DNA of 35,149 nt from a virus. The stretch is taken from positions 1 to 35,149 of IMG/VR virus record IMGVR_UViG_3300022540_000681; one strand, written 5' to 3'. The position numbers and the translations under genes are program-made. Positions 7,948 to 35,149 of the stretch are shown here, one piece after another. Position 1 is the stretch's first letter; every line of letters starts with the position of its first letter. The notes under the pieces are model-generated. The model made no database searches. It saw only the letters and a list, made by a program, of their open reading frames with translations, and was not told the origin of the DNA.

Positions 7948-8337
7948 ATGGAAAAATATACAAGAAGTGACGTAATGAAAGTTGCCGCTATGATGGCTAA
8001 AGGGAATTGTGGGAAAACACCTGAGTATTTATCTGAATCATGGGAGTATGTGAAAAATCTTGATTTAATCGAAACAGCTAAAACTTTATATGATTTCGGT
8101 GGGCTGTCTGGATTGTGCGATATTCTTAATTATTTTGATAGCCATATACTTTATGAAGATAAATTTAGTTATTACTGTCTAAATGATTTAACTGGCCTTC
8201 CGATTGAAGGGAAAGAACCCGAAAATGGAACATGTGAAGTATGGAGTTATGACGAAGAATCTATTTTGACATGTGATGGACACACTTTTGATGGTGAAAA
8301 TTGGAAGATATGTTCACGGGAAGAATGGGCAAGTTAA
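7948..8337 (+). CDS. Hypothetical protein, 129 aa
   Basis: AAGGAG precedes the ATG, 11 bases after the nucleotidyltransferase-like gene, so the two are co-transcribed. The first half is helical (RSDVMKVAAMMAKGNC). The second half is acidic with several Cys, Trp and aromatic residues (EVWSYDEESILTCDGHTF, then WKICSREEW), perhaps a small beta domain. No known family. The stop codon overlaps the tRNA-like element at 8337. Confidence 0.5.
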   Translation: MEKYTRSDVMKVAAMMAKGNCGKTPEYLSESWEYVKNLDLIETAKTLYDFGGLSGLCDILNYFDSHILYEDKFSYYCLNDLTGLPIEGKEPENGTCEVWSYDEESILTCDGHTFDGENWKICSREEWAS

Positions 8338-8374
8338 TCCAGAATGGTTTGCCGGTTCGATTCCGGCACTGGAT
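8337..8374 (+). ncRNA. Mini tRNA-like element: acceptor stem plus T-arm only
   Basis: GCCGG-TTCGATT-CCGGC (8351-8367) is a perfect five-pair T-arm with a consensus seven-base T-loop. The 3' strand ACTGGAT (8368-8374) pairs at six of seven positions with ATCCAGA (8337-8343). Only seven bases replace the D and anticodon arms. It may be a tRNA remnant, an att-like scar or a functional minihelix; no T-run makes it a usual terminator. Confidence 0.5.
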
Positions 8375-34091: not shown

Positions 34092-34234
34092 TTACCCAGC
34101 TCCTTTAAATTATGATTGATCAGCATAATTAAATAGCCACTGACAGACATATTGTAATGATCTGCCGCATCTTTAATTCTAATTTTAAACTCTGGTAAAC
34201 ATCTTACCATTATCGCACTTTCTTTTAATCCCAT
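34088..34234 (-). CDS. Ribbon-helix-helix protein, Arc/CopG-like, 48 aa
   Basis: MGLKESAIMVRCLPEFKIRI gives the beta strand and first helix; AADHYNMSVSGYLIMLINHN gives the turn (MSVSGYL) and second helix of a ribbon-helix-helix. 48 aa is typical of Arc-type repressors. AGAGG precedes the ATG. First gene of the leftward operon and next to its divergent promoters, so self-regulation is likely. Its stop overlaps the next start. Confidence 0.72.
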   Translation of the reverse strand: MGLKESAIMVRCLPEFKIRIKDAADHYNMSVSGYLIMLINHNLKELGK

Positions 34235-34251
34235 AATTACCTCTTAATACG

Positions 34252-34280
34252 ATAATATAACAAAAGTTAATATATTGCAA
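34252..34280 (-). promoter_or_regulatory. Leftward promoter of the regulator/resolvase operon
   Basis: On the minus strand, TTGCAA (34275-34280), 17 bases, TATTAT (34252-34257). The palindrome TATTGCAATA (34273-34282) covers the -35 and may be an operator for the ribbon-helix-helix protein. Confidence 0.7.
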
Positions 34281-34289
34281 TACTTTATA

Positions 34290-34318
34290 TTGACTATTAT
34301 ATGGATATCCCTTAGTAT
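34290..34318 (+). promoter_or_regulatory. Divergent rightward promoter before the structured RNA region
   Basis: TTGACT (34290-34295), 17 bases, TAGTAT (34313-34318). The -35 begins ten bases from the leftward -35, so one bound regulator could act on both. Confidence 0.65.
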
Positions 34319-34362
34319 CTTAATTAGATAGTTGTAGTAGGCTATATAAAAAGGAGGATGAT

Positions 34363-34377
34363 ATGAGAACCCGTTAA
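34363..34377 (+). CDS. Four-codon leader ORF (MRTR)
   Basis: ATG-AGA-ACC-CGT-TAA follows a near-perfect AAGGAGGATGAT, the strongest ribosome binding site in this region, but codes for only four residues. It stands about 40 bases after the predicted transcription start and directly before the structured region, like leader peptides that tie ribosome position to RNA folding. Confidence 0.45.
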   Translation: MRTR

Positions 34378-34501
34378 AGGCGGGAACTGCCGTTTACCTG
34401 TCATGGGTGGCGGTGGTAGCGGCTTGCCAGTTAAGTGAGAGGGGTATTGAAAAATTATACTAAACTGGATAGTGGGACACCGGCGAAACAGGTGCCATTA
34501 A
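34378..34501 (+). ncRNA. Probable structured RNA leader
   Basis: No gene is visible. The stretch is richer in G and C than its surroundings and holds several possible pairings: AACTG with CAGTT around CCG/CGG (about 34385-34432), ACC-TGTCATG-GGT, and GG(A)CACC with GGTGCC near 34475-34497. It matches no riboswitch or ribozyme class I can name. Confidence 0.35.
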
Positions 34502-34679
34502 GCACAGGTGGTGGAATTGGTAGACACTGGTAGTCGGAACCGATCAGGAGAACAGCAAACGGGTTTTCAGGAAATGGGAAATTCACGGTAGTAATTTATT
34601 ATTATATCGTTTGCCATGGTGATTCTCCAACCGAGCCGAAAGGTAAATGATCATGCTCGTTCAATCCGGGCCCTGTGCA
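34502..34679 (+). tRNA. tRNA-like RNA, class II (Leu/Ser type) with about 90-nt insertion
   Basis: Acceptor GCACAGG (34502-34508) pairs perfectly with CCTGTGC (34672-34678), discriminator A79. D-arm: GTG-GAATTGGTAGA-CAC, the tRNA-Leu type. T-arm: GCTCG-TTCAATC-CGGGC (34655-34671), five pairs and a seven-base loop. An anticodon-like arm GGTAG-TCGGAAC-CGATC (34529-34545) has one mismatch and C instead of U at position 33. The part between it and the T-arm is about 109 nt and holds its own stems: GGAGAA with TTCTCC, GCAAACG with CGTTTGC. The normal length is about 87 nt; identity and function are uncertain. Confidence 0.6.
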
Positions 34680-34719
34680 TACTTGATATAATCAAGGGCA
34701 AATATATAAGGTGGTAAGA

Positions 34720-35112
34720 ATGGAAAAAGAAAATGTAATTATGAAGGTTTTGGAAATGTTAATTAACAGCAATGATTCTGTTATTAATAATTCATCAGCA
34801 ATTTTAGAATGCAATTCATCACTAGCAAGTCAGTATGTAGGGGAATTTTGTATTATACGGACATACTCAGCAGGGGTCCATTTTGGAAGAGTTGAACAGG
34901 CTGAAGGAAAAGAAGTTGTATTGTCAGCAGCACGAAGGATCTGGAGTTGGTCTGATAGGTTTACATTAAGTAAAATTGCAGAAGATGGATTAGAAACAGC
35001 AAAAGTTTCTTGTCTTGTTGATAATATTTATTTGTCTGAATCTATTGAAATTCTGCCTGTTTCAGACAAATCGAGGGAGTCTATTTATGCTATTAAAGAA
35101 CATAATTCATAA
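34720..35112 (+). CDS. Conserved phage protein (DUF6948-like), 130 aa
   Basis: YVGEFCIIRTYSAGVHFGRV (about 39-58), EGKEVVLSAARRIWSWSDRF and the end IYLSESIEILPVSDKSRESI match a widespread phage family of unknown function, with invariant-looking R-T-Y-S-A-G-V and A-R-R-I-W segments. AAGGTGG precedes ATG 34720, about 40 bases after the tRNA-like RNA. The next gene, with the Gly/Tyr/Asp tail, starts inside its 3' end; as I recall, this family often has such a neighbour. Confidence 0.72.
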   Translation: MEKENVIMKVLEMLINSNDSVINNSSAILECNSSLASQYVGEFCIIRTYSAGVHFGRVEQAEGKEVVLSAARRIWSWSDRFTLSKIAEDGLETAKVSCLVDNIYLSESIEILPVSDKSRESIYAIKEHNS

Positions 35113-35149
35113 ACAGCGTTCCGGGCACGGTTACGGTTACGGTGACGGT
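35087..35149 (+). CDS. N-terminal part of Gly/Tyr/Asp-tail small protein (junction-spanning)
   Basis: ATG 35087 follows GAGGGAG by seven bases and reads MLLKNIIHKQRSGHGYGYGD, running exactly to the last base. It overlaps the preceding gene out of frame. Joined to base 17 onward of the window across the shared 16 bases, it ends SGYGDG-stop, 27 residues in all. A short basic, hydrophobic head carries a repetitive tail; function unknown. Confidence 0.65.
   Translation, partial: MLLKNIIHKQRSGHGYGYGDG
35134..35149. repeat. Right copy of terminal 16-bp direct repeat
   Basis: CGGTTACGGTGACGGT, identical to bases 1-16 and 19-34. It marks the contig closure point within a short period-18 repeat array. 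Confidence 0.9.

Follow-up and report, generated by a model that had tools for sequence, protein, structure and literature searches.

Why would a phage without tRNA genes carry the frame of a tRNA? The window studied here, a virus record of 35,149 bases analysed over its full length, belongs to a tailed phage; the genes found include those for terminase, portal, minor head and tape measure. The two ends of the window have a glycine-repeat sequence in common and, judging from this sequence, probably join. ARAGORN finds no tRNA gene in the whole 35-kb window. A first, sequence-only reading had described an acceptor, a Leu-type D-arm and a T-arm on the + strand, and all of these elements are present where it placed them:

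34502..34679, + strand: the whole 178-nt tRNA-like RNA (arms by sequence, constrained fold, shuffles and covariance-model alignment)
34502..34508, + strand: acceptor 5′ strand, GCACAGG (7/7 pairs with 34672-34678)
34511..34527, + strand: Leu-type D-arm, GTG 34511-13, loop GAATTGGTAGA, CAC 34525-27 (sequence; blastn matches to tRNA-Leu genes)
34655..34671, + strand: T-arm, GCTCG 34655-59, consensus loop TTCAATC, CGGGC 34667-71 (sequence)
34672..34679, + strand: acceptor 3′ strand, CCTGTGC 34672-34678, followed by A73 at 34679 (sequence)

The T-arm stem has 5 bp, one of which is a T.G pair. CCA is not encoded at the 3′ end, where TAC follows position 34679. The RNA resembles tRNA-Leu in acceptor length (7 bp), D-arm sequence, T-arm with its consensus loop, and A73, but it lacks the regular anticodon arm of a functional tRNA-Leu (a 5-bp stem and a 7-nt loop with U33) and measures 178 nt vs. 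~85 nt, the excess of about 90 nt that had been reported. ARAGORN and Rfam are blind to it. The RNA at 34502-34679 was not detected by ARAGORN, and Rfam at the gathering threshold gave no match, tRNA (RF00005) and tmRNA (RF00023) included. Down to E = 5 neither RF00005 nor any intron family appeared, and matches to snoRNA families at E ~4 were discarded as chance. The third acceptor pair is A-U and not G3-U70, in keeping with the earlier exclusion of a tmRNA.

The arms exceed chance, as had been claimed. When the 35-kb window was shuffled 300 times with its dinucleotides preserved and both strands were searched, the 7-bp acceptor with the 5-bp T-arm occurred 10 times, and the composite with a D-arm at the right distance never occurred (0/300). 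A shorter element (ATCCAG .. GCCGGTTCGATTCCGGC A CTGGAT) lies at 8337-8374 of the window, directly 3′ of an ORF ending at 8337. It is a minihelix of T-arm and acceptor that lacks both the D-arm and the anticodon arm, and it could be either an att core, namely a host tRNA 3′ end, or another tRNA-like element.

The middle of the RNA was modelled as a cloverleaf, that is, a fold with the acceptor, D- and T-arms forced. This fold has -49.0 kcal/mol vs. -50.6 kcal/mol for the unconstrained fold, within 1.6 kcal/mol of the free minimum. Its parts, with one alternative for the anticodon-like arm, are:

34529..34541, + strand: anticodon-like hairpin GGU AGUCGGA ACC with a 3-bp stem (constrained fold, pair probability ~0.7)
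34529-34545, + strand: alternative anticodon-like arm GGUAG UCGGAAC CGAUC with one A.G mismatch (sequence)
34542..34652, + strand: predicted giant variable arm of 111 nt, closed by GAUCA 34542-46/UGAUC 34648-52 (constrained fold, probability 0.58-0.72)
34547..34628, + strand: main branch of the variable arm, outer stem GGAGAA 34547-52/TTCTCC 34623-28 (sequence; pair probability ~0.9)
34555-61/34608-14, + strand: main branch, inner stem GCAAACG/CGTTTGC (sequence; pair probability 0.55-0.58)
34635..34644, + strand: small hairpin GCC GAAA GGU (constrained fold, probability 0.8)

In the constrained fold the variable arm has two branches and is separated from the T-arm by a 2-nt spacer. Beyond the inner stem are two small AU-rich hairpins. 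The GCC GAAA GGU hairpin resembles those in the variable arms of ordinary tRNA-Leu. The two nested perfect stems had been seen before, and stems as good arise in only 7/1000 shuffles of the insert (0.7%). Folding speaks for the model when the arms are forced; left unconstrained, the complete RNA folds just mildly better than shuffles (z -1.26). Given the shuffle and covariance-model results (the latter described below) on one side and this mildly unusual folding energy on the other, the tRNA frame of 34502-34679 is certain and its inner arm only probable. Among the readings offered earlier, a giant variable arm most likely accounts for the expanded middle; both the constrained fold and the same plan in a covarying 157-nt family fit it best. 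U33 is missing in both anticodon-loop readings, as had been noted, with C33 in UCGGAAC and G33 in AGUCGGA. Since neither reading of the anticodon arm has U33 and CCA is unencoded, decoding by the 178-nt RNA is unlikely.

The RNA sits in about 620 bp without an ORF of at least 60 aa, between a divergent regulator gene (start 34091) and a DUF6948 gene (34711-34720). No ORF of at least 60 aa overlaps 34092-34710, and so a protein-coding explanation was not found. The neighbouring features are:

34290..34318, + strand: sigma-70-like promoter candidate, TTGACT, 17 nt, TAGTAT (consensus scan, 9/12)
34345..34501, + strand: structured leader 5′ of the tRNA-like RNA, with an RBS-like AGGAGG and a 4-codon ORF (MRTR) (sequence)
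34711..35112, + strand: DUF6948 protein gene downstream of the RNA, ORF start GTG 34711 (PF22253, E 2.1e-25)

The promoter candidate is weak, as 8 sites in the window score like it vs. 4.4 expected from shuffles. The leader folds with z -1.83, and 10/200 shuffles fold equally well. ATG 34720 is a likelier start of the DUF6948 ORF than GTG 34711; depending on the start, 31-40 nt lie between the RNA 3′ end and the gene. One close relative (G001) shows 99.98% identity across the 20 kb that were compared, but the record is 20 kb long and stops short of the RNA region. Two others have terminases with 82% (G002) and 69% (G004) identity to that of the window phage. Window positions 34138-34326 align with G002 at 74%, after which a different gene follows in G002. 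Neither the tRNA-like RNA nor DUF6948 was found in G002 or G004. Because these close relatives are without them, the RNA and DUF6948 appear to be exchangeable accessory cargo.

Searches for homologues of the RNA came back empty in five close phage relatives, in 50 DUF6948 phages and in 50 further terminase relatives. A blastn against phage records gave short matches only, tRNA-Leu among them. One DNA pattern search with the 5′ half of the RNA returned 0 matches; another returned 10 contigs, of which all but L366 and L369 have ordinary tRNA-Leu genes. The Leu-type RNA of L369 is 116 nt long and stands alone, and ARAGORN finds no tRNA in the 8-kb locus. In L366 (minus strand, match 1708-1728) the anticodon loop of a tRNA-Leu(UAA) is split by an insert of ~660 nt with an HNH endonuclease ORF; the insert is group-I-intron-like, and the related L371 has an intact tRNA. 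The DUF6948 protein of the window, used as a lone query, found no relatives in viral contigs. By these sequence searches, the RNA at 34502-34679 appears to be an orphan.

A similar plan is found in a 157-nt tRNA-Leu-like RNA that is conserved in 50 uncultured viral contigs (alignment A3, model R1). Examples are:

L226:5588-5744, + strand: 157-nt family member
L250:3706-3864, + strand: 157-nt family member
L076:12190-12346, + strand: 157-nt family member
L103:6984-7131, + strand: 157-nt family member

Two-sided compensatory changes occur in 26/42 of the predicted pairs. The plan consists of a Leu-like frame, a D-loop hairpin, an anticodon-like arm that encloses an invariant GTC, and a giant variable arm whose apex, TATGGGTTGACCACAAAGCCGGC, is invariant in nearly all members. 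Rfam, run on five of these loci, does not report the family, and blastn of the 157-nt RNA against 50,697 phage records gave no match. The window RNA has in common with it the tRNA-Leu-like frame, the giant variable arm, the 2-nt spacer before the T-arm, the unencoded CCA and a 7-nt anticodon-like loop (usually without U33 in the family), but it lacks the TATGGGTTGACCACAAAGCCGGC apex and the D-loop hairpin. The alignment of the covariance model R1 to the window RNA spans its full length, with ends falling precisely on 34502 and 34679, and scores 22.3 bits. Membership in the family was rejected, as many ordinary tRNA-Leu genes score higher against R1 (30-50 bits) and the apex is absent.

A scan with a 7-bp acceptor plus T-arm as the signature showed similar over-long RNAs in many phages, mostly within tRNA clusters. 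Many of the tRNA-cluster candidates were artefacts caused by pairing across several tandem tRNAs, and from these clusters only candidates with a D-arm of their own or a conserved core were used. Vibrio phages ValKK3, nt-1, 6E35.1a and D481 encode a tRNA-like RNA of 110-113 nt with a conserved core:

L223:1183-1295 and L372-L374: Vibrio 113-nt tRNA-like RNA of ValKK3-type phages

Its acceptor covaries from AGTCGGG/CCCGACT to GACCGAT/ATCGGTC while the core is kept. It is annotated as tRNA-OTHER in 6E35.1a and overlaps hypothetical proteins in others. Like the window RNA, it is missed by ARAGORN and combines an over-long core with an acceptor, a D-arm and a T-arm that are all intact. Unlike the window RNA, it has another D-arm type, sits in a tRNA region, ends in CCA in one version, and seemingly keeps a GTT anticodon loop with extra bases before the loop. 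In five uncultured phages (L084, L118, L225, L232 and L243) several tRNA-like elements each share the acceptor AGTCAGG..CCTGACT and the T-arm but differ in their cores, which are unrelated and 70-157 nt long; it looks as though a single tRNA-Leu frame had served repeatedly.

In the literature on long or unusual phage tRNA-like RNAs, we found only accounts of T4 RNAC and RNAD (PMC9697503, PMC3014915). RNAC (species 1 RNA, 139 nt) is annotated as a small stable RNA. It is seen on Northern blots and made during infection (PMC9697503); the roles of RNAC and RNAD are unknown (PMC3014915, PMC9697503). RNAC is phage-encoded and over tRNA length like the window RNA, with a T-arm of consensus type and an acceptor-like stem of 7 bp, but it lies in a tRNA cluster and is without a Leu-type D-arm at its 5′ end. 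No sequence similarity was detected between RNAC or RNAD and the window RNA. The window RNA is over-long, has a T-arm and acceptor and no regular anticodon arm, as does RNAC. On the basis of such structural models, RNAC-like over-long phage RNAs would be a kind, not a homology family, with the window RNA as an orphan example.

The position of the RNA next to DUF6948 was compared across other loci. Iodobacter phage PhiPLPE (EU876853) has an unannotated 161-nt RNA with paired acceptor and T-arm at L005:453-613, ~200 nt upstream of DUF6948. Unannotated RNAs also occur near DUF6948 in L187 (105 nt at 781-885, paired acceptor and T-arm, with the direct repeat CCATTCATTTATCATT on its flanks) and in L190/L197 (165 nt, likewise with paired acceptor and T-arm; L190 minus strand, 1953-2117 on the reverse complement), where they lie nearby. 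Among 80 viral-contig loci, none has a tRNA-like RNA directly upstream of DUF6948, and the few nearby include one pair on the opposite strand. DUF6948 is usually inside an operon. We dropped a general link between tRNA-like RNAs and DUF6948, as the RNA is directly upstream in L005 alone of 88 other loci. The neighbour that does recur is an ORF of (Gly-X)n repeats with many Ser, Tyr and Asp residues, found on the same strand in 87/88 loci (0/88 on the opposite strand), mostly right after DUF6948 (window 34711-35149 and 1-38; L142-L221, L002-L009). From this gene order, DUF6948 and the (Gly-X)n ORF seem to form a conserved two-gene module.

How the RNA should be explained depends on how much of a tRNA is left. 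The strongest rival is a decaying tRNA-Leu: a phage gene that took a ~90-nt insertion and is now functionless, its arms surviving as the event was recent. With no homologues found in the contigs, phage records and relatives searched, we regard it as a tentative alternative. The weak folding z and the broken anticodon arm beside a near-perfect Leu D-arm consensus agree with a wreck. The fully paired acceptor and T-arm in a genome without any intact tRNA gene do not, nor do the rarity of the nested stems in shuffled inserts and the existence elsewhere of similar long RNAs conserved with compensatory changes. That no RNA is made and the resemblance is accidental is scarcely credible; the RNA has neither homologues nor covariation support of its own, but against this stand the composite signature, absent from all window shuffles, and the lack of a coding explanation.

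Two further explanations were weighed. If the RNA were a processing or regulatory part of the DUF6948 leader, RNase P and 3′ tRNA processing would cut the transcript there and thereby control how much downstream message is present. The short distance to DUF6948, the structured leader before the RNA and the PhiPLPE arrangement are consistent with this, but the viral-contig loci argue against a general role and an arm of 111 nt is needless for a processing signal; we consider it unlikely. Still less likely is that a small intron of an unknown type splits an otherwise functional tRNA, as suggested in the sequence-only reading. The 5′ and 3′ tRNA halves are indeed well formed, but removing no part of the insert yields, by eye, a good 5-bp anticodon stem with U33. 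The Rfam search to E = 5 shows no intron, and the intron-like insert of L366 is far longer and carries an HNH endonuclease. The earlier dismissal of a group I intron stands, the ~90-nt insert being too short for its core.

We favour, with a probability of about 0.5, a gene for a phage-encoded, non-decoding tRNA-like RNA that combines a tRNA-Leu frame with an expanded middle and acts via a tRNA-binding protein. The acceptor and elbow of tRNAs are recognised by RNase P, 3′ processing enzymes, the CCA-adding enzyme, synthetases and many tRNA-targeting enzymes. Protein binding is the simplest function because the acceptor and elbow are kept, a usable anticodon is missing and an extra arm is present. 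The arms, the missing ORF, the missing U33 and the position between the candidate promoter and the DUF6948 gene are observed directly. From these we propose that the RNA would be transcribed together with the DUF6948 operon, cut by RNase P at 34502 and trimmed at its 3′ end. Host enzymes would then add CCA, and the RNA would be kept as a stable RNA. Its partner could be a protein that recognises tRNAs by elbow and acceptor, for instance a synthetase, a tRNA-targeting defence nuclease, or an enzyme of tRNA processing or modification, and the RNA would occupy or redirect this protein with its extra arm. A decoy or mimic role is possible.

The tRNA-like RNA of the window is genuine, unusual and an orphan, and it belongs as a variant to a kind that is known yet unexplained. 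Its occurrence as a single copy in a 35-kb phage that has no other tRNA genes argues against such RNAs being a mere by-product of tRNA clusters. A bolder and doubtful extension is that phages might encode a large, hardly annotated class of non-decoding tRNA mimics whose variable arms are giant or whose cores are rebuilt, and which would occupy or redirect host proteins that bind tRNA, e.g., tRNA-targeting defence nucleases; the window RNA would then be a member standing alone in a small phage devoid of tRNA genes, and the 157-nt family would be a conserved one. For T4 RNAC and RNAD, listings still give no known role. Should over-long tRNA-like RNAs recur across unrelated phages, in part conserved with many compensatory changes, comparison and deletion could be used to test what they do, and tRNA finders and Rfam would be overlooking an entire kind of phage RNA. 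The side findings, above all the 157-nt family, may be worth more attention than the RNA of the window.
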